Source: Aliiglaciecola sp. CAU 1673 (GTDB taxonomy: Bacteria > Pseudomonadota > Gammaproteobacteria > Enterobacterales > Alteromonadaceae). From it: DNA of 64,000 nt. The translations under genes were made by a program, and so were the position numbers. The notes beneath the pieces are model-generated. The model saw only the letters and a program-made list of their open reading frames with translations, was not told the DNA's origin and searched no databases. The stretch lies in assembly GCF_029223185.1 (NCBI RefSeq), contig NZ_JARHUG010000006.1, positions 62,001 to 126,000 of the forward strand, read 5' to 3'. Positions 31,681-39,927 of this stretch are shown piece by piece. The first letter of the stretch is position 1; the number at the start of each line of letters is the position of its first letter.

Positions 31681-31714
31681 TAAGGGCACACATTTAAGAG
31701 CTAACCTTTATGGC

Positions 31715-32020
31715 TTAAGTAAAGGTCGCCTCAAAAAAAACATAATCAACCGTTTGATCAACTGGCACCATAAAGAGGCTTAAGACGCCTAATTCTGGAT
31801 GACGCAAAGTGTACATACCCTGATTGGTGGACTCTCCATCGGTTTTAAAAAGCAGTGAAAACGGGGGGCGTTTAACTCTTGGGTCATCTTGCTGAAACAA
31901 TGGCGCCACTTCTGTCAGCTCAAAAGCCTGTTCTGGTTCGCAGGTAAACTGTTGACCTATAAACGGCTTGAAGTCTTCGAGGGTAAAAGTGTGGAGTTCT
32001 TGCTGTGTCGGTTGTGCCAT
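31715..32020 (-). CDS. small cytosolic DUF6916-like protein
   Basis: 101-aa protein with no signal peptide, all-beta in appearance. The layout FTLEDFKPFIGQQF...FELTEV...FSLLFKT...QGMYTLRHPELGVLSLFMVP resembles the DUF6916 family as I remember it (not verified by search). ATG at 32020 is chosen; the longer frame to 32101 would invade the divergent gene's leader. Divergent from the methyltransferase gene. The Tat-exported protein encoded at 33168 shares the same residue pattern, so the two are probably diverged relatives. Function unknown. Confidence 0.7.
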   Translation of the reverse strand: MAQPTQQELHTFTLEDFKPFIGQQFTCEPEQAFELTEVAPLFQQDDPRVKRPPFSLLFKTDGESTNQGMYTLRHPELGVLSLFMVPVDQTVDYVFFEATFT

Positions 32021-32109
32021 GCTGCGGTTGTTCTCTTCCTCGCCTAGTATTCTTCTTACCTTAGCACTGTCCGTTTGTCTGCGCACTGTTGCAACAATCA
32101 AGGAATATT

Positions 32110-33015
32110 ATGGCTGCTTCATCTGTATTTACCCATACCAACCATCCGGCATTCTATTACGAAGACATGTTGGCGGATAAAGTGCGTATGCAGCTTTATC
32201 GCCGTGCTATCAATGAAGTGGTCAAGCCCGGAGCTATCGTTGCAGACCTTGGCACAGGTATGGGGGTGCTGGCGATGATGGCGATACAAGCAGGGGCTGC
32301 ACATGTCTTTGCCGTAGACAACCGACCTCAGATCTTTCCGGTGACCCAAGCAGTTGTCGATCAAAATGGAATGACCGATCGGATCACCCTAATCAATGGC
32401 GATGCCAGAACTGTTCGGTTGGAGCAAAAAGTCGATGTCATTATCAATGAATTAATAGGTGACTTCGGTACAGACGAGAATATTTATGAATGCGTCTCTG
32501 CCTTTGCCAGAGCCAATTTAAAGGCTGATGGCTGCATCATGCCAAAAGGCATACGCACGTTATTGGTACCTCTGGAGCATAACGATGAGTTTCGCGGTGT
32601 ATGGCGCAGTGATTATCAAGGCCTGGATCTTAGCTGTGTAGCATCCATTCCCTGTCGCGAAGAGGCGGTGATGCGTTTTCTGTCCGCCCAGCCCAAAGAA
32701 CTGGCAACACCTGCAATGTTGGAAGACATTACGTTTAACATCAATATGGCGCCTCGTCAGACAAGATTTGAAGGAAATTTTCAGCTACATAGTGACGGTG
32801 TTTTACATGGGTTTATGGGCTTTTTCGAAACAGCTTTGACCGACCACATTCGATTGTCGAATTATCCTCAGTATCCTGGCTGTCACTGGCAGACCTGGCA
32901 CTGGCCTGTCTATCCCTTTCGTCGCTTTCAGGTGGGGCAGCATCTGACAGCGGTATTGAATGCCATACCAAATATGGTTGCCCAAGGTTGGACATTGGAG
33001 TGGTCAACAGCTTGA
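32110..33015 (+). CDS. protein arginine methyltransferase-like SAM enzyme
   Basis: 301 aa with several PRMT signatures: an N-terminal YYEDMLADKVRMQLYRRAI stretch equivalent to the eukaryotic EEMLKDEVR..YR helix, motif I VADLGTGMG (45-52), post-I acidic Asp70, a double-Glu loop (Glu114 and Glu123 in NELIGDFGTDENI), and a THW-like loop near 259 (CHWQTWHWP). ATG at 32110 has AAGGAA 5 bases upstream. PRMT-type enzymes are uncommon in bacteria. The substrate is unknown; neighbouring collar proteins or the DUF6916-like protein are candidates by position only. Confidence 0.72.
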   Translation: MAASSVFTHTNHPAFYYEDMLADKVRMQLYRRAINEVVKPGAIVADLGTGMGVLAMMAIQAGAAHVFAVDNRPQIFPVTQAVVDQNGMTDRITLINGDARTVRLEQKVDVIINELIGDFGTDENIYECVSAFARANLKADGCIMPKGIRTLLVPLEHNDEFRGVWRSDYQGLDLSCVASIPCREEAVMRFLSAQPKELATPAMLEDITFNINMAPRQTRFEGNFQLHSDGVLHGFMGFFETALTDHIRLSNYPQYPGCHWQTWHWPVYPFRRFQVGQHLTAVLNAIPNMVAQGWTLEWSTA

Positions 33016-33098
33016 ATTGTCAGATAAATTTACAATTGGTGTTTCTACAGATAAGCATTAGATATTCATACCTTTGATAACTATGCCTTTTCTGCACA

Positions 33099-33114
33099 TG
33101 GCTCACATTGTGCA
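33099..33114 (+). promoter_or_regulatory. candidate sigma-54 promoter ahead of the collar-protein operon
   Basis: TGGCTCACATTGTGCA. The invariant GG (-24) and GC (-12) are exactly 10 bp apart, and 9 of 12 positions fit TGGCACG-N4-TTGCA. It lies 54 bp before the start of the Tat-exported protein gene. Confidence 0.45.
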
Positions 33115-33167
33115 TTCCTTGAACAACTTTTCCAGGTGGATACAGCAGCTTGATGGAGGCTACGCCT

Positions 33168-33575
33168 ATGTTCAAGAGACGTGATTTTATCCTGGGCTCC
33201 AGTGCATTTGCCGGTCTGGCGCTCCTGACCCCCTTTGCATCGTTCAGGACGATTGCTAAGGTGACTACTCCAACAGCCACTCAGCTGGACAAATTTCATC
33301 AGCTACAAAAGCAGCAAAAATGGCTGGCCCTTTACGATCAAGAAGGCACGTATTTATCTGATATTCGCTTGTTGTCGGTCGAGCAACTTCGTCTCGATGC
33401 TCAAACTGATCAATTCACCTTGCATTGGCGAAGTCGGGATGAACTGCAGATAAATGCGGGCACCTATGTAGTGGATGATTTCTCCTCCAGTCCCCAAAGC
33501 CTGTATTTGGCTCCTGCTTCTAGTACCGAGCAGGGCGTATTGTTTGATGCGCCATTTAGTTTACTCAGGGAGTAA
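33168..33575 (+). CDS. Tat-exported DUF6916-like protein
   Basis: 135 aa. The N-terminus FKRRDFILGSSAFAGLALL is a twin-arginine signal (RRDFI core plus hydrophobic stretch), so it should be exported folded. The mature part lines up with the protein at 31715-32020: L..V, FTLHWRS vs FSLLFKT, NAGTYVV vs NQGMYTL, LYLAP vs LFMVP, FDAPF vs FEATF. ATG at 33168 follows GGAGG by 8 bases. First gene of the run leading to the three collar proteins; 90 bp separates it from the first. Function unknown. Confidence 0.75.
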   Translation: MFKRRDFILGSSAFAGLALLTPFASFRTIAKVTTPTATQLDKFHQLQKQQKWLALYDQEGTYLSDIRLLSVEQLRLDAQTDQFTLHWRSRDELQINAGTYVVDDFSSSPQSLYLAPASSTEQGVLFDAPFSLLRE

Positions 33576-33665
33576 TGAGGGTTTTATCAACCCAACGTAG
33601 TCTGACTCCACAACGAATCAGAAACTCTCAAAACAAGAGTATCAATAAATCAAAGGAGAGCCGAC

Positions 33666-34184
33666 ATGTCAGAACCCTTCCTGGCAGAAGTCAAAATAGT
33701 GGGATTCAACTTCGCGCCGCGAGGTTGGGCTCACTGTGATGGACAGATTTTGCCCATCAATCAGAATCAGTCTCTTTATTCCCTACTTGGCACCACATAC
33801 GGTGGTGATGGGCGCACCAGTTTCGCTTTGCCTGATTTGCGCGGGCGCACGCCTTTGCATGTTGGTAATGGCGTTCTATTGGGACAAAAAAGTGGAGCTG
33901 AAAACCACACCCTGACACAGGCAGAAATCCCATCGCATACGCATGGAGTAAGGGGAACCAGCAGTGCCGCATCGAGTAGCTCCGGATCAGGACAATTACT
34001 GGCCACTACCGGGGGCGGGCGACGCGCCATTTTGCCCTATGCGGATGTCAGCCCTGCCAACTCGCAAGCACTGGGAAATGGGCAGATTGGCAGTATAGGC
34101 GGGGGGGCTCACAACAACATGCAGCCATTTCTCTCAATTAACTTTGTGATTGCACTGCAAGGCTTGTTTCCTTCTCGCAATTAA
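33666..34184 (+). CDS. phage tail collar domain protein 1 (MdpB type)
   Basis: 172-aa protein of the microcystin-dependent-protein/phage tail collar family. The N-terminal collar domain (about 5-65) reads EVKIVGFNFAPRGWAHCDGQ then LGTTYGGDGRTSFALPDLRGR. A Ser/Gly-rich middle and a conserved C-terminus ending INFVIALQGLFPSRN follow. No signal peptide is visible. AAAGGAGAG precedes the ATG. There are no other phage structural genes, so it is not prophage debris. First of three paralogues. Confidence 0.88.
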   Translation: MSEPFLAEVKIVGFNFAPRGWAHCDGQILPINQNQSLYSLLGTTYGGDGRTSFALPDLRGRTPLHVGNGVLLGQKSGAENHTLTQAEIPSHTHGVRGTSSAASSSSGSGQLLATTGGGRRAILPYADVSPANSQALGNGQIGSIGGGAHNNMQPFLSINFVIALQGLFPSRN

Positions 34185-34199
34185 ACAAGGAGTCTTCTT

Positions 34200-34715
34200 A
34201 TGTCAGATCCCTTTGTCGGCGAAATTCGCATGTTTGCGGGTAACTTCGCCCCCCGTGGTTGGGCTTTTTGTGACGGGCAGTTGTTAGCAGTGTCCCAAAA
34301 TGATGCGTTATTTAGCTTATTCGGTACTATCTACGGTGGCGATGGAAGGACGACTTTCGGCTTGCCCGATTTGCGCGGTCGTATCCCTATCCATATGGGA
34401 AGCGGTCCGGGGCTGACCCCCCGAAATATCGGCAGTAGAGGTGGCGCAGAGCACGAAACCCTGACTGCAAATCAAATTGCTGCACACAATCACAGCTTTT
34501 CAGCCACATCGAGTGCCGCCAGTGATGCCAGCCCTGCCAATAACAGTATCGCCGCGTCTACCGGTGCCAATTTATACGGCAGCAATAATCCTGCGGCCAT
34601 GAATGGGGCTTCAATTACGCCTACCGGTGGCAGTCAGTCTCATACCAATTTAATGCCTACACTCTGTATCCACTTTATTGTGGCGCTGGTAGGCATTTAT
34701 CCGTCCCGCCAATAA
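34200..34715 (+). CDS. phage tail collar domain protein 2 (MdpB type)
   Basis: 171 aa, same architecture as its neighbours: EIRMFAGNFAPRGWAFCDGQ, FGTIYGGDGRTTFGLPDLRGR, a Ser/Ala/Asn-rich variable middle, and a C-terminal NLMPTLCIHFIVALVGIYPSR. It starts 15 bp after the first paralogue's stop with AAGGAG. The middle segment differs most between copies, as expected of tip regions in trimeric collar-like proteins (inference). Confidence 0.88.
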   Translation: MSDPFVGEIRMFAGNFAPRGWAFCDGQLLAVSQNDALFSLFGTIYGGDGRTTFGLPDLRGRIPIHMGSGPGLTPRNIGSRGGAEHETLTANQIAAHNHSFSATSSAASDASPANNSIAASTGANLYGSNNPAAMNGASITPTGGSQSHTNLMPTLCIHFIVALVGIYPSRQ

Positions 34716-34725
34716 GGAGAGGCAC

Positions 34726-35232
34726 ATGTCAGACCCCTTTATTGCTGAAGTGAGAATCTTCGCTGGTAACTTTGCTCCCCGTGGTTGGGCCTTTTGTGAC
34801 GGTCAGCTGCTGCCCATAGCGCAGAATACGGCGTTGTTTTCTTTAATTGGCACCACTTATGGTGGCGATGGTCGCACTACCGCTGCGCTGCCAAATTTGC
34901 AGGGCAGAGCGCCAATGCATCCGGGAAGAGGTCCGGGCCTGACCGACCGCCGTTTAGGAGAACGGGTTGGTATTGAGACTGTGACATTGACCGAAGCGCA
35001 GATCCCTAATCACAGTCATACATTGGTGGCTTTTTCTGATGCCACTGCCTCTTCACCTTCCACATCGGTCGGGTTAGGGGCTGCGCCAATGTACGGCGCT
35101 GGTACACAGGTTGCTATGGACAGCGATATTGTTGGTGCGACTGGTGGCAACCAGGCTCACAACAATATGCAGCCCTATTTGGGTATTAACTTTATTATCG
35201 CCCTGCAAGGGCTTTACCCGTCCAGGTCTTAG
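34726..35232 (+). CDS. phage tail collar domain protein 3 (MdpB type)
   Basis: 168 aa. EVRIFAGNFAPRGWAFCDGQ, IGTTYGGDGRTTAALPNLQGR and the C-terminal NNMQPYLGINFIIALQGLYPSR match the other two copies. It begins 10 bp after paralogue 2 behind AAGGAGAGG. The acetyltransferase frame opens directly after its stop, so all five genes from 33168 to 35780 are probably on one transcript. Confidence 0.88.
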   Translation: MSDPFIAEVRIFAGNFAPRGWAFCDGQLLPIAQNTALFSLIGTTYGGDGRTTAALPNLQGRAPMHPGRGPGLTDRRLGERVGIETVTLTEAQIPNHSHTLVAFSDATASSPSTSVGLGAAPMYGAGTQVAMDSDIVGATGGNQAHNNMQPYLGINFIIALQGLYPSRS

Positions 35233-35234
35233 CC

Positions 35235-35780
35235 TTGGATATAAACAGTATTGCGGTTTCAGGAAGGAGTCCTGTTGCCATCGCCTGTCCATATATCAGC
35301 ATTGATGGTGATGCGCTGAGACTGCGCTTGGTAGATTCCACCGACAGGGCTTTTTTGCAAAGAGTGTATGCACAAAGCCGGGCCGATGAGATGGCAAAAG
35401 TGTCACATTGGTCTGATGTGCAAAAAGCTGAATTCCTACGCTTTCAGTTTGACGCACAGGATGCCCATTATCGTGCTCATTACCCTGATGCTGAGTTCTG
35501 GGTGGTGCAATGGCATAAGCAGGATATTGGTCGCTTGTATCTGCACCACTCTGAAGACGATATCAGGGTAATGGATATCGCATTGCTAAGTCCGCTTCGT
35601 GGCCAGGGTTTTGGCAGTCAGTTGATGCAGTGGATTTTGTCTATGGCTGAGCGGCAAAATAAAAGTGTCAGTTTGCATGTGGAGCCGGAGAATCCGGCCA
35701 AACGTCTCTACTTGTCACTTGGCTTTGAAGTCTGTGGGGAAATCAGTTTTTATCAACGCATGTGCTGGCTTCCCAACTGA
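35235..35780 (+). CDS. GNAT family N-acetyltransferase
   Basis: Up to 181 aa. The GNAT fold is clear from about residue 30: LRLRLVDSTDRAFL, a central strand, the acetyl-CoA loop LSPLRGQGFGSQLMQWIL, and the C-terminal NPAKRLYLSLGFEV. The start is uncertain: no ATG/GTG lies in a sensible place, and the frame opens with TTG at 35235, 2 bp after the collar gene's stop, so translation may depend on coupling. A GGAAGG site inside the frame suggests a shorter form. Substrate unknown. Confidence 0.8.
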   Translation: MDINSIAVSGRSPVAIACPYISIDGDALRLRLVDSTDRAFLQRVYAQSRADEMAKVSHWSDVQKAEFLRFQFDAQDAHYRAHYPDAEFWVVQWHKQDIGRLYLHHSEDDIRVMDIALLSPLRGQGFGSQLMQWILSMAERQNKSVSLHVEPENPAKRLYLSLGFEVCGEISFYQRMCWLPN

Positions 35781-35868
35781 GGTGCTGGTTGTCTGTGTTT
35801 TTTACAGTTTGTTAACATTCTTGCTCCAGTGTTTTCCTAACATTATGTAATAAAAGGAAAAAACATAG

Positions 35869-35884
35869 TGGCGTGATATTTGCG
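35869..35884 (+). promoter_or_regulatory. candidate sigma-54 promoter for the PEP-CTERM gene
   Basis: TGGCGTGATATTTGCG has GG and GC 10 bp apart and matches TGGC-N7-TTGC, 9 of 12 consensus positions. Transcription would start near 35895, giving a leader of about 93 nt. PEP-CTERM genes are often sigma-54 dependent through PrsK/PrsR, which supports it. Confidence 0.55.
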
Positions 35885-35943
35885 GTGACACTTGCGATAA
35901 GCTTCACCAGACACACTTTATGATTGGACACGTGCGCGAATTG

Positions 35944-35974
35944 GAGGGCTGGCCCTCTCTTCGGGTGCAACACC
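35944..35974 (+). other. two leader hairpins before the PEP-CTERM gene
   Basis: GAGGGC-TG-GCCCTC (35944-35957) and GGTG-CAA-CACC (35964-35974) lie just before the AAGGA ribosome site. They could affect translation; they do not match a riboswitch I know. Confidence 0.4.
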
Positions 35975-35987
35975 TAAGGAGACATTT

Positions 35988-37331
35988 ATGTCCTTAACGT
36001 CGTTTGCTAAAGCCTTGGTTCCACTTCCTGTAGTTTCCGCTGTTGTGTTGTGTTTATCTTGTCTCTCTTTCAGCCTGTCGGCGGCCATCATCGACCATAC
36101 CTGGATTGGGACATGGGGAGGGACAGGCGCAGGTAATCCTGTTGGTGTAAATGGTCCCGGGATGTCGGCCGGGCAGCGCTTTGTTATCCGGGTGGCTTAT
36201 GATGACGCCTCTGCTGTGACTGATAATGTTGATGTCTTAGACGCCTTTTTTAATCCATCAGGCGAATTGATGCGCACTATCGATTTAAATGCGGCTGGTA
36301 ATTCGCTGGATATCTTTGTGCCAATGGAGGGATTAGATGCTGGCAGCCCATTTATTTATGTGCAAAGTGAAGCTGATCATTTCCCAGCCTTTATTCCTAA
36401 TCCAACCCTCAATTTTGTCAATGGCAGCAACATCAGTAACACAGCAAACCTGATTGGCTTGGAGTTTGAAGGCAATTTCTTCGCTGGAGCCGCGCAAAAT
36501 GTCATTGAGCTTTTTAATACGGCTCCACCCGGTGGTCCCATCAATATGCAGAGCCAGATTTTTAATTTGGACAATGGACTACCAGCGGTGACCGGCTCCA
36601 ATTCTCTTGCCTCGGCCGTGGGCTTGGCGATCGATGCAGGACCTGATTTGGTCTACAACGCTGCTACGCTGGTGCAAAATACGTCCATGTCCGTGCTGCA
36701 AAGCAATGATTTGGGTGCGGCGCGTAGTGATGGTGAAGACTTTGTAGACGTCAGCTGGACACCAGCCGGCACACCGAGTGGCAATGATACCAGTGTGGGT
36801 ATTGCCGATTCCGGCCTGACGATGACTACCAGCACCACTACCTGGACGGCCAATGCCACGGAACAGATGACTGGTAAAACGGCTTCAGATACCCTCAATA
36901 TCAGCTATGACAATGCTGTTCCTACCTTGAATGCCAGTGCCACTGCGAATGCCGGTGGCACAGATTTCAGTATGACCTTTGCTGATCTGGATTTGGCCGT
37001 TAACGCCTTGATTGCCGGATTCGAGTCACTGACATTTGCAGCACTCCTTGACGGTCTTATTGATGCCACTGCCTTTTTCAATACGCTGTTTACCACGGGA
37101 TCGCAAAGTAGCAGCGATGCCAGTCTTTTCAGTGCTTTCGGTGCGGGAGCGCACAATGTTGTGTTTACCCTGGTTGATAAGGCGGGCGCCATGGCCCGCG
37201 CTTCGGTGGACTTTACGGTTAATACAGTGCCGCAGGATGTCCCTGAGCCAGGCACCTGGTTGCTTATCTTGTTGGGCGCAAGCCTGCTAATGTTGCGACC
37301 TACCGCAGGGAAAAGGAGCCGTCGTTGCTGA
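35988..37331 (+). CDS. PEP-CTERM sorting-domain surface protein
   Basis: 447-aa secreted protein with a long hydrophobic signal peptide (1-34) and a textbook PEP-CTERM tail: PEP motif at about 419-421, hydrophobic segment, and basic end GKRSRRC. It should be processed by exosortase and linked to surface or matrix polysaccharide; no exosortase is in this window. The middle is Ser/Thr/Asn/Gly-rich, beta-type, with no recognised domain and almost no Cys. AAGGAG precedes the ATG. The next gene starts before this one ends. Confidence 0.88.
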   Translation: MSLTSFAKALVPLPVVSAVVLCLSCLSFSLSAAIIDHTWIGTWGGTGAGNPVGVNGPGMSAGQRFVIRVAYDDASAVTDNVDVLDAFFNPSGELMRTIDLNAAGNSLDIFVPMEGLDAGSPFIYVQSEADHFPAFIPNPTLNFVNGSNISNTANLIGLEFEGNFFAGAAQNVIELFNTAPPGGPINMQSQIFNLDNGLPAVTGSNSLASAVGLAIDAGPDLVYNAATLVQNTSMSVLQSNDLGAARSDGEDFVDVSWTPAGTPSGNDTSVGIADSGLTMTTSTTTWTANATEQMTGKTASDTLNISYDNAVPTLNASATANAGGTDFSMTFADLDLAVNALIAGFESLTFAALLDGLIDATAFFNTLFTTGSQSSSDASLFSAFGAGAHNVVFTLVDKAGAMARASVDFTVNTVPQDVPEPGTWLLILLGASLLMLRPTAGKRSRRC

Positions 37332-37903
37332 GCAAATTCAGAAGCGTCACACTGATGGCGCTTTTGATTTTTACATGCCTGGCTCAGGCCAAGGATGATG
37401 ACGGCGCCTTTGCCTTAAAAGGCATCGGCACGGCCACTTGCAATAGATACATTGATGCGGCGGCCAATGAAAAGCCTGAACTCCTACAGATAGCCGGTTA
37501 TGTCACCGGCTATATCTCTGCTTACAATGAGCTGAGTGAAGATACCTTCGATCTTCTGCCCTGGCAGCAAATGGATACCTTGATGCTGCTGATGTTGCAG
37601 CAATGCCGGCAAAACCCGCAACTCACCATTGGCATGGCCGTCTCTCAACTGGCCAGGTATTTTTCTGCCACAAAATTAGCTCAGCAAAGTGCCATGCAAG
37701 AAATCACAAGCGGAGGTAGCACTTTTTACCTCTACCCACAGGTTCTTGAGCAACTCACCAAAGCACTTCGTGAAAGAGGGTATGCTAGTGGTGATTTGGT
37801 TGCAGATCTCAATCGTTTTAAGCAAGAGAATCAAATCAAAGGGGAGCATCCCTTTGCTCAGTTAGTTATTTTAAAGCTGCTTTATAGTAAAGATCCTGCT
37901 TAA
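37325..37903 (+). CDS. small secreted protein of unknown function
   Basis: 192 aa with a cleavable signal peptide (about 1-22). The first half has two Cys (TCNRYIDA and QQCRQNP) around a GYVTGYISAYN stretch, an arrangement reminiscent of small periplasmic HdeA/Rap-like domains. The second half (FYLYPQVLEQLTKALRERGY...DLNRFKQENQ) resembles a peptidoglycan-binding-type helical repeat. Start is TTG at 37325 supported by AAAAGGAG 5 bases upstream; it overlaps the PEP-CTERM gene by 7 nt, so the two are coupled and may work together. No family assigned. Confidence 0.72.
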   Translation: MLSKFRSVTLMALLIFTCLAQAKDDDGAFALKGIGTATCNRYIDAAANEKPELLQIAGYVTGYISAYNELSEDTFDLLPWQQMDTLMLLMLQQCRQNPQLTIGMAVSQLARYFSATKLAQQSAMQEITSGGSTFYLYPQVLEQLTKALRERGYASGDLVADLNRFKQENQIKGEHPFAQLVILKLLYSKDPA

Positions 37904-38187
37904 TCGCTCTATGCGGTATCTCTCCTCCTCTGATTTCATTCCGGCGAAAGCGAAGAGGACCGCAGTCATATCTTGTGTTGACATCATCTTCCAGCTGCCC
38001 ATCACTCGGTAACTGTGCATTTGTAATATTTTATTCTTCTATCTGTAGCATTTACTTCATTGGTCTGACACATAGCCCGGGCAGCATGGGCTGTCCCCTT
38101 TTTCGGGAACCCAAACCTAAGACGTCAGCAGCGTAGTGGACGTTTGCATAGCAGTGGTGCAACTCAATCAGAATAGTGGATATTCCC

Positions 38188-39927
38188 ATGCTTAAACAAA
38201 ATCTAAAACTTTCTCTTCTTGCGGTTTCCGTGGTATTTGCCTTGACCGCCTGTAGCGGTGATGACGGCACCGATGGCGCCACCGGCTCTCAAGGTCCTGC
38301 TGGTCAGGATGGTGCGCCGGGTGCTCCTGGTGTGGACGGTGCTGCTGGACAAGATTTGACGGCGGCGCCTAAGTTGTCTCGTGTGGCGACTGTGCCTGTA
38401 GGTGCAGAAATCACTGGTATGTTCGTTACCGATAACGACGAGCTTTTCTTCAACGTGCAACACCCTGAAGATCTGGATGGTAATGCTACCCCTGCTCAGG
38501 TTGGTTTTGTTGCCAATCTGGATTGGAGCAAATTAGATCCGCGCACGGCTGAGCTGACAGCGCCCACCACCGATGCCGAAAAAATGGCAGTGCGTGTTGT
38601 CTCTGGTAGCTATCAGGCACTGGGTATGGCCGATGGACATCAGGACAAGGTGACCTTTGGTTTGGGTGCCATTGTATCTTCCGATGGTACTACCGAGCTG
38701 AAACAGTCACAGGATCCTGACTTCAACGCCTTTATTGCTGCCGATGCCGCCGGCAAGGAAGGTTATCTGTTTACCGCCTGGGAAGATCGTCCCGGTACCA
38801 TGAGCCGCATGGCGCTTAGCATGCAAGATGATGGCACCTGGTCTGTGGGTGACATTATTAATGTGGATTTCTCCGGTGTACTTGGCACCATCATCAACTG
38901 CTTCGGCAGCCTGTCTCCGTGGGGTACGCCGCTGACTTCAGAAGAAAATTATGAGGCTGAAAATACCTCTCAGTGGAACAACACGGCATATGTGGATGGT
39001 TATCCCAGCTATACCGATATTAAGCTTCTGATGGATTACCTGGGCACCAACGCACTGCCTAATCCTTATAACTACGGTTACATCGTCGAAGTGACCGATG
39101 CCATGGGCACCAACCCTACGCCGGTTAAGCACTACACTTTAGGCCGCGCGGCTCATGAGAACGCATTGGTGATGCCTGACTGGAAAACCGTCTACACCAC
39201 TGATGACGGTACCAACAAAGGTTTTTACAAGTTTGTTGCCAAAACGGCGGGCGATCTAAGCGAAGGGACCTTATATGCTGCCAAGCTGACTCAGGACAGC
39301 ACATCTGATGCTGCCAAGGCCGGTTTTGATATTCAATGGATTGAACTGGGCACGGCCAGCAACGCGCAAATCGCTACCTGGATTGCCGATTATGACGGTA
39401 TTACTGAAGCAGATTATGTCGAAGGCCAAACCAGCTATATCACCGATGCCGAGATCCAGGAATGGGCTGACAATGGCACTGGCGATGACCGTTATGCCTT
39501 CCTCGAGACCCTGAAAGCGGCCAAGGCCAAAGGGGCGACGGTGGAATTCCGTAAGATGGAAGGGATTGCCATTAACTACAACGGCGCTGCTAATAACAGC
39601 ATTCCTTATATGTACGTGGCCATGTCAGAAGTGAGAAGTGGTATGACTGACGGTCAGGGCGACATACAAGTGGATGAGAGTGCACGCTGTGGTGCCGTCT
39701 ATCGTTTTGGTCTGCATCCCGACTACAACGTGACCCGTATGGATCCTGTTGTCGTTGGCGGTGCCTACAACAGCCAAGGTGACGAGCATGGAAACCGCTG
39801 TGATGTTAATGGTATCTCCAACCCCGATAACCTGGCGGTACTGGACGATGGTCGTGTATTGATTGGTGAAGACACCAGCAACCACACCAACAACGCTATG
39901 TGGATCTATAATCCCAAAGGTGAATAA
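38188..39927 (+). CDS. PhoX/DUF839-like lipoprotein
   Basis: 579 aa. Signal peptide with lipobox LTAC (Cys22), a collagen-like Gly-X-Y stretch (about 24-56), then a DUF839/PhoX beta-propeller. PhoX-like elements are seen in ENALVMPDWKTVYTTDDGTNKGFYKFV and in the C-terminal NPDNLAVLDDGRVLIGEDTS. PhoX is a Ca/Fe alkaline phosphatase usually exported by Tat; this protein has no twin Arg and should leave by Sec. ATG 38188 is chosen over GTG 38176. A Pho box was not found. Phosphatase activity is therefore uncertain. Confidence 0.83.
   Translation: MLKQNLKLSLLAVSVVFALTACSGDDGTDGATGSQGPAGQDGAPGAPGVDGAAGQDLTAAPKLSRVATVPVGAEITGMFVTDNDELFFNVQHPEDLDGNATPAQVGFVANLDWSKLDPRTAELTAPTTDAEKMAVRVVSGSYQALGMADGHQDKVTFGLGAIVSSDGTTELKQSQDPDFNAFIAADAAGKEGYLFTAWEDRPGTMSRMALSMQDDGTWSVGDIINVDFSGVLGTIINCFGSLSPWGTPLTSEENYEAENTSQWNNTAYVDGYPSYTDIKLLMDYLGTNALPNPYNYGYIVEVTDAMGTNPTPVKHYTLGRAAHENALVMPDWKTVYTTDDGTNKGFYKFVAKTAGDLSEGTLYAAKLTQDSTSDAAKAGFDIQWIELGTASNAQIATWIADYDGITEADYVEGQTSYITDAEIQEWADNGTGDDRYAFLETLKAAKAKGATVEFRKMEGIAINYNGAANNSIPYMYVAMSEVRSGMTDGQGDIQVDESARCGAVYRFGLHPDYNVTRMDPVVVGGAYNSQGDEHGNRCDVNGISNPDNLAVLDDGRVLIGEDTSNHTNNAMWIYNPKGE

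Follow-up and report, generated by a model that had tools for sequence, protein, structure and literature searches.

The 64,000-nucleotide stretch of the Aliiglaciecola sp. CAU 1673 genome analyzed here (contig NZ_JARHUG010000006.1, positions 62,001 to 126,000; hereafter the window) carries an islet in which three tandem genes for phage-tail-collar-domain proteins (collars A, B and C) are accompanied by genes encoding a GNAT acetyltransferase and two DUF6916 proteins. Collars, DUF6916 and GNAT constitute one recurrent cassette outside phages, beyond what is expected by chance, and the recurrence of the collar triad and its two partners across phyla suggests that bacteria have tamed a phage part into an undescribed surface structure. 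Our favored reading, with a probability of about 0.45, is that the islet represents a domesticated phage-tail-tip module used at or outside the cell envelope by the mechanism proposed below.

A recurrent cassette with three collar paralogues

To follow the cassette beyond the window, a genome collection was scanned with the collar alignment, and the best 80 of 461 confirmed relatives were taken by collar similarity only; the resulting rates apply to near relatives of the window collars rather than to collars in general. Profiles were seeded from the window and its relatives and then extended. Among these best 80 loci of the 461, three collars were present in 67, six in two, two in four and one in seven, and GNAT was found at 65 loci, DUF6916 at 57 and both partners at 55. 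The GNAT profile scores ranged from 115 to 260 bits with two exceptions, a 70-bit contig-edge fragment that was counted (L081) and a second, 20-bit hit in L062 that is unrelated. Among the loci with both partners were some assigned to Proteobacteria, Acidobacteria, Bacteroidota, Chloroflexi, Verrucomicrobia, Pirellulaceae and Nocardioides, many of the scan records being metagenome bins whose taxon names may be wrong, and the triads of Paenibacillus had either GNAT or DUF6916. Three collars with GNAT and DUF6916 were also present on annotated plasmids of Ruegeria sp. TM1040 and Sinorhizobium meliloti LMB1, and an annotated plasmid of Deinococcus ficus carried three collars and GNAT with no DUF6916 found within the 12.5 kb seen. 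Spacing within the loci was operon-like, with a median gap of 12 nucleotides (148 gaps). The window itself holds the complete cassette, a single member of each collar group together with GNAT and DUF6916.

The same association was apparent in an even sample from the class, comprising 229 genomes. Five of these genomes had DUF6916 and 24 had collars, and all five DUF6916 genomes carried collars (Fisher p = 8e-6). The GNAT profile was matched past 1e-15 in 11 genomes and past 100 bits in seven, although misses are possible since at most 16 candidates were scored per genome; five of these seven were the five DUF6916 genomes (p = 4e-9). Among 40 kin genomes, a collar match was obtained in 15, six of which were opened. 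Two of them (G229 and G247) exhibited three collars with DUF6916 and GNAT, another (G240) two collars with a Tat-type (twin-arginine translocation) DUF6916 protein, GNAT and a PEP-CTERM protein, and the remaining three had one collar with GNAT (G255), one collar adjoining a PEP-CTERM protein (G258) and collars with a weak DUF6916 hit (G264). An earlier note on this DNA, made from the letters and open reading frames (ORFs) alone, had suggested counting how often the families co-occur in other genomes; they do so in both the scan loci and the even sample, and a lack of co-occurrence, named beforehand as a refuting result, did not appear.

A FastTree tree of the full set of 239 collar proteins, taken from 85 sources (the 80 scan loci, L022, L023, L025, L028 and the window), resolved three groups, A, B and C, with local support of 90, 88 and 94. 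Three or more collars were present in 72 sources, and 68 of these had one each of A, B and C, the exceptions being L058, L072, L077 and L095. The order among the 68 was A-B-C in 57, B-A-C in six, C-B-A in three and B-C-A in one, and one locus (L033) contained two full sets. Because the group-picking score favors one member per source, the grouping was rechecked by a second model and by a position-label test. With the better model, applied to 25 chosen sources and nine collars from single- and double-collar loci, A, B and C were each separated by a branch (Shimodaira-Hasegawa-like approximate likelihood ratio test support of 91, 92 and 91), and with gene position as the sole label, 17 changes were counted in 61 sources versus 86.9 in shuffles, with none of 200 shuffles as low. 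A, B and C are three old paralogue groups that have been kept in a ratio of 1:1:1 in several phyla.

Proposed roles of the collars and their partners

In the mechanism we propose, one copy each of A, B and C would fold together while still in the cytoplasm, giving an intertwined trimer like that of T4 gp12 in which the conserved HxH motifs bind a metal. Assembly would be helped by the DUF6916 protein that lacks a signal, and GNAT would acetylate the collar N-termini, which mostly read M-[S/A]-x-P-[F/Y]. In loci that have a Tat partner (in the window, the Tat-type DUF6916 protein), the folded trimer would exit the cytoplasm riding on it, and once outside, the trimer and a surface partner (in the window, the PEP-CTERM protein) would bind glycan or matrix.

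GNAT forms a distinct family which, judged from its profile, leans toward the N-alpha-acetyltransferase type. Enzymes of this type account for 15 of the 31 PDB matches of the profile, among them the entries for MAK3, SSO0209 and RimI, which we take to be N-alpha-acetyltransferases, and the window GNAT reaches 33.4 bits with the rimI equivalog model, under the cut-off of 86.4. In sources with GNAT, 188 of 208 collar N-termini start with M-[S/A/G/T] and four with M-[D/E] (16 unclassed), and in sources without GNAT the corresponding numbers are 21 and five of 31 (five unclassed). Among the seven single-collar scan loci, none of which has GNAT, five start with M-[D/E]-P. These counts give only a hint of a link between collar start residues and GNAT. 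The DUF6916 protein encoded at 31715-32020 yielded a small all-beta AlphaFold2 model (predicted local distance difference test score, pLDDT, of 90.7), and its best PDB match by sequence, a phage neck protein, reached just E 0.019.

It is quite possible that the cassette is conserved and that GNAT and DUF6916 nevertheless act otherwise, for instance with GNAT acetylating the surface partner or a small molecule. The share of N-alpha-acetyltransferases among the PDB matches speaks against this, as do the small residue following Met in most triad collars and the M-[D/E]-P starts of the GNAT-less single collars, but GNAT substrates are hard to infer from sequence, the PDB matches also include PAI 1 and diamine acetyltransferase 2, two genomes (G093 and G214) have GNAT with no collar, and DUF6916 has no known fold.

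T4 gp12 is a trimeric receptor-binding tip, and the HxH motif in tips of this kind holds a metal. The collar profile matches T4 gp12 in the PDB (1ocy, E 5e-5), and HxH is conserved in 70 of 72 proteins of group A, in all 70 of group B and in 68 of 70 of group C. Two proteins of other genomes also fit trimers as far as their domain arrangement indicates: one of G111 (L031 7664-9232) combines three collar cores with three collar C-terminal pieces, arranged as circular permutations and followed by a PEP-CTERM tail, thereby presenting three unlike collar units in one chain, and one of G043 has a single permuted collar behind collagen repeats. The monomer model of collar C (pLDDT 61.5) was too poor for a structure search, which was taken as a hint of a trimer. 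From these observations we infer that A, B and C may share one trimer. The three collars could instead form homotrimers with different ligands encoded in one operon, which would leave the remainder of the cassette unaffected; we consider this rather unlikely. Phage collar fibers such as T4 gp12 are homotrimers, the order of the collar genes varies and single- and double-collar loci exist, all of which would fit such an arrangement, whereas the strict 1:1:1 composition of 68 of the 72 sources, the doubling of the whole set in L033 and the three unlike collar units of the G111 chain argue against it.

Triads are accompanied in many loci by a giant repeat protein, a Tat-signal protein or a PEP-CTERM protein. 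A long same-strand ORF lies within 700 bp upstream in 34 rows (33 scan loci and a contig-edge fragment in L023), those of L078, L087 and one frame of L098 being doubtful. Across the 73 scan loci with at least two collars, the giant-protein profile matched in 38, a figure that is not independent because the profile was built from those same 34 rows, and the three giants that were scanned contained cadherin, Ig or Calx-beta domains. Tat-like ORFs were present within 2 kb of collars in 24 of the 73 loci (24 near versus 11 far, p = 5e-8), some of the frames, e.g. in L039 and L105, probably not being genes. Tat-type DUF6916 proteins were found in nine scan loci and L022, and PEP-CTERM proteins beside the collars of two of the 73 loci (L072 and L099) as well as, by eye, in L136 and L137. 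In the window, the protein encoded at 35988-37331 qualifies as a PEP-CTERM protein and exosortase substrate with a borderline motif: PF07589 scores 21.5 bits (cut-off 20.7) and TIGR02595 19.1 bits (cut-off 16), but the genome scan gave 19.3 bits, which is below the cut-off. The genome encodes both an exosortase (2.5e-73) and TatC (9.6e-72).

That the collars act inside the cell or escape only by lysis, with independent exported neighbors, appears improbable. The window collars carry no signal peptide, and RhiA, which is encoded with the collar-class protein RhiB, is described as cytoplasmic and unseen in the supernatant in the part of the source considered, a statement that covers RhiA alone and not RhiB (PMC2275737). 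Against an intracellular role stand the enrichment of Tat-like ORFs beside triads, the giants and PEP-CTERM proteins that adjoin them and the PEP-CTERM tail or Sec-like N-termini (L097 and L104, by eye) of some collar proteins themselves.

Several results weigh against the domesticated-module reading as a whole or against single steps of it. Neither GNAT nor DUF6916 was found in six of the 73 loci (L057, L078, L093, L094, L096 and L097), two of which, L078 and L093, sit on contigs under 6 kb. The partners were likewise absent in 19 of the 24 collar genomes of the even sample, so that the cassette represents one class of cellular collar. G077 and G143 have a single collar with GNAT, the DUF6916 of G143 lying on a different contig, the cassette parts of G174 are spread over several short contigs, contrary to a tight unit, and G093 and G214 encode GNAT with neither collar nor DUF6916 hits. 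In 27 of the 73 loci, no giant repeat protein, Tat-like ORF or PEP-CTERM protein was detected, and the Tat signal of the window, read from the RR motif and the hydrophobic stretch following it, scored 12.9 bits with the TAT_signal model, below the cut-off of 22.7. In addition, four collars of GNAT loci start with M-D-P, the M-[S/A/G/T] start is also used by the 21 of 31 collars mentioned above that lack GNAT, the DUF6916 model returned no fold match at E <= 0.001 in the PDB or among viral models, and the poor monomer model of collar C can have other causes.

The islet in the window and its surroundings

Features of the islet are listed in Table 1. All seven genes originally named are present among the window ORFs; the locus had been delimited as 31715-35780, an extent that proved too short, as it missed the PEP-CTERM gene and the small exported protein gene downstream. 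Relatives of these two genes also flank the set in G081 (L022), a genome of the same class and another family, which indicates that the locus is larger than originally thought.

Table 1. Features of the islet in the window
Feature	Coordinates	Strand	Evidence	Remark
Signal-less DUF6916 protein, 101 aa (amino acids)	31715-32020	-	PF21880 3.6e-21	start checked; proposed assembly helper
PRMT-like methyltransferase, 301 aa	32110-33015	+	PDB PRMT6 1.4e-22 over aa 15-261	probably islet passenger
DUF6916 protein with Tat-like signal, 135 aa	33168-33575	+	PF21880 3.1e-7	proposed export partner
Collar A, 172 aa	33666-34184	+	PF07484 1.6e-27, 95.6 bits	group A
Collar B, 171 aa	34200-34715	+	PF07484 2.7e-29, 101.3 bits	group B
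Collar C, 168 aa	34726-35232	+	PF07484 2.9e-28, 98.0 bits	group C
GNAT acetyltransferase, up to 181 aa	35235-35780	+	Acetyltransf_7 2e-11; 206 bits with own profile	start uncertain
Exported PEP-CTERM protein, 447 aa	35988-37331	+	PF07589, TIGR02595	proposed surface partner
Small exported protein, 192 aa, weakly HdeA-like	37325-37903	+	PF06411 20.4 bits, cut-off 22	relative in L022
Whole islet, between miaE and PhoX-family gene	31681-38175			empty site in congener G232

The three collars all score above the curated PF07484 cut-off of 24 bits, and collar C shares 56% identity with B and 57% with A; a search of the genome found no collar genes beyond these. Two DUF6916-like proteins had been claimed for the locus, and indeed both match PF21880, with a mutual BLASTP of just E 0.002. 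The N-terminus of the Tat-type protein is MFKRRDFILGSS. Gaps measure 90 nucleotides from the Tat-type DUF6916 gene to A, 15 between A and B, 10 between B and C and two between C and GNAT. GGAG-type ribosome sites precede the Tat-type DUF6916, A, B and C genes, and no clear ribosome site accompanies the TTG start of GNAT at 35235. Window-wide, promoter-like sites numbered five versus 7.8 expected and terminator-like sites 17 versus 7.4, counts that we leave uninterpreted.

Upstream of the islet lie miaE as well as purF and a small membrane protein gene, the latter two named from ORF reading, and downstream a PhoX-family lipoprotein-like protein is encoded at 38176-39927. In the congener G232 a distance of 172 bases separates the relatives of miaE and PhoX, and the genes on either side keep their order, which defines an islet of nine genes in the window, at about 31681-38175. 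The presence of other genes on the same side of miaE in G229, G230, G231 and G139 marks the site as variable. No tRNA was found in the window, and no long repeat flanks the islet. The PhoX-family protein includes a stretch resembling collagen, for which the Collagen model gives 24 bits and stays below its cut-off, and PhoX relatives also adjoin the Paenibacillus triads L059 and L108; PhoX was nevertheless rejected as a cassette member, because the gene in the window belongs to the conserved border of the empty site.

The PRMT-like gene was rejected as well. Its product is a true PRMT relative by the PRMT6 match, the PRMT5_C and PRMT_C models remaining under their cut-offs, and PRMT-family enzymes are uncommon in bacteria. 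No hit was obtained at 87 other loci, and the single full-length relative in the 40 kin genomes (G233, 28% identical) is encoded in a genome without this collar. The earlier note had listed both enzymes with the collars and DUF6916 proteins as one compact locus and suggested an assembly that they modify; as a recurrent grouping this is supported for GNAT and not for the PRMT-like protein.

Other gene neighborhoods were seen at single loci. A weakly Tectonin-like protein, below cut-off, adjoins the triad of L047 (10620-11813), and at the triad of L070 (11578-12831) this place is taken by a periplasmic binding protein that starts with a Tat-like sequence. By eye, a collar and GNAT of L028 (8113-9408) are placed amid Asn synthase-, sulfotransferase-, halogenase- and PqqD-like genes, perhaps a peptide-modification cluster, Asp/Asn hydroxylase- and sulfotransferase-like genes are located near the collars of the kin loci L133, L134 and L136, and the cluster following miaE in the congener G229 (L164 2356-9001) contains a small peptide gene and export-system-like genes.

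Phage parts, known systems and significance

A collar match was obtained in 268 phage records (303 places), all less than 60% identical; about 43% was the top value among the 15 matches listed, and the best cellular loci reached 70%. A search of 50,697 phage records gave no match for one DUF6916 query and seven weak matches for one GNAT query. The claim that three tandem collars stand without phage genes around them is upheld by the PF07484 hits and the window ORF list, in which no phage genes were seen by eye, and a match to a known prophage module, another refuting result named beforehand, did not appear in these comparisons. A decayed prophage tail module is hardly credible, for the frames are open, no phage genes were seen in the ORF list and the same set occurs in several phyla with non-phage partners, even though the collar domain belongs to phage tails by family and matches to PHROGs tail families were obtained.

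Known systems resemble the cassette in part. The window collars match the collar region of the short tail fiber gp12 of T4 in sequence (PDB 1ocy, 1pdi and 5iv5); gp12, however, is one homotrimeric virion protein, whereas the islet encodes three cellular paralogues with GNAT and DUF6916. The mosaic adhesive trimer (MAT) fibers of Bdellovibrio are described as glycan-binding surface fibers with phage-like trimeric parts, long single fibers with a signal peptide followed by a conserved domain and in some cases an S74 chaperone/protease (PMC10769870). The word collar is absent from that text, its passages considered here mention no triads, GNAT or DUF6916 (PMC10769870), and the window collars, with 168-172 amino acids and no signal, fall outside the MAT definition. 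Non-phage proteins of the collar class are known as COG4675 'microcystin-dependent protein' (MdpB), including the rhizobial RhiB, and according to the parts of the sources considered they have been reported in soil metaproteomes, and earlier rhi mutants had no symbiotic defect (PMC6969944, PMC5579227); COG4675, unlike the cassette, is a class name without a defined function. In its proposed role, GNAT can be compared with Emp1, the N-terminal acetyltransferase of mycobacterial EsxA, which acts on an exported protein and is described as also serving at least 22 other proteins (PMC10653941). Among open-access PMC papers, with subscription journals and preprints outside the scope, no description of collar triads or of the cassette was found, and no paper was returned for DUF6916 or for 'phage tail collar' with 'PEP-CTERM'.

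A broader picture, in which the cassette would be an old and widespread surface machine of Gram-negative and Gram-positive bacteria, an obligate heterotrimeric tip acetylated at its N-termini by a dedicated enzyme, put together by DUF6916, exported in folded form on a Tat partner and capping giant extracellular fibers or PEP-CTERM proteins, appears doubtful. Bacterial genes labelled 'tail fiber protein' are readily mistaken for phage debris, and here they belong to a conserved cassette. If the domesticated-module reading is true, it would provide roles for DUF6916, a GNAT family and many mislabelled proteins, a homotrimeric viral part would have been turned into a heterotrimer, and Tat may offer a route for folded adhesins.

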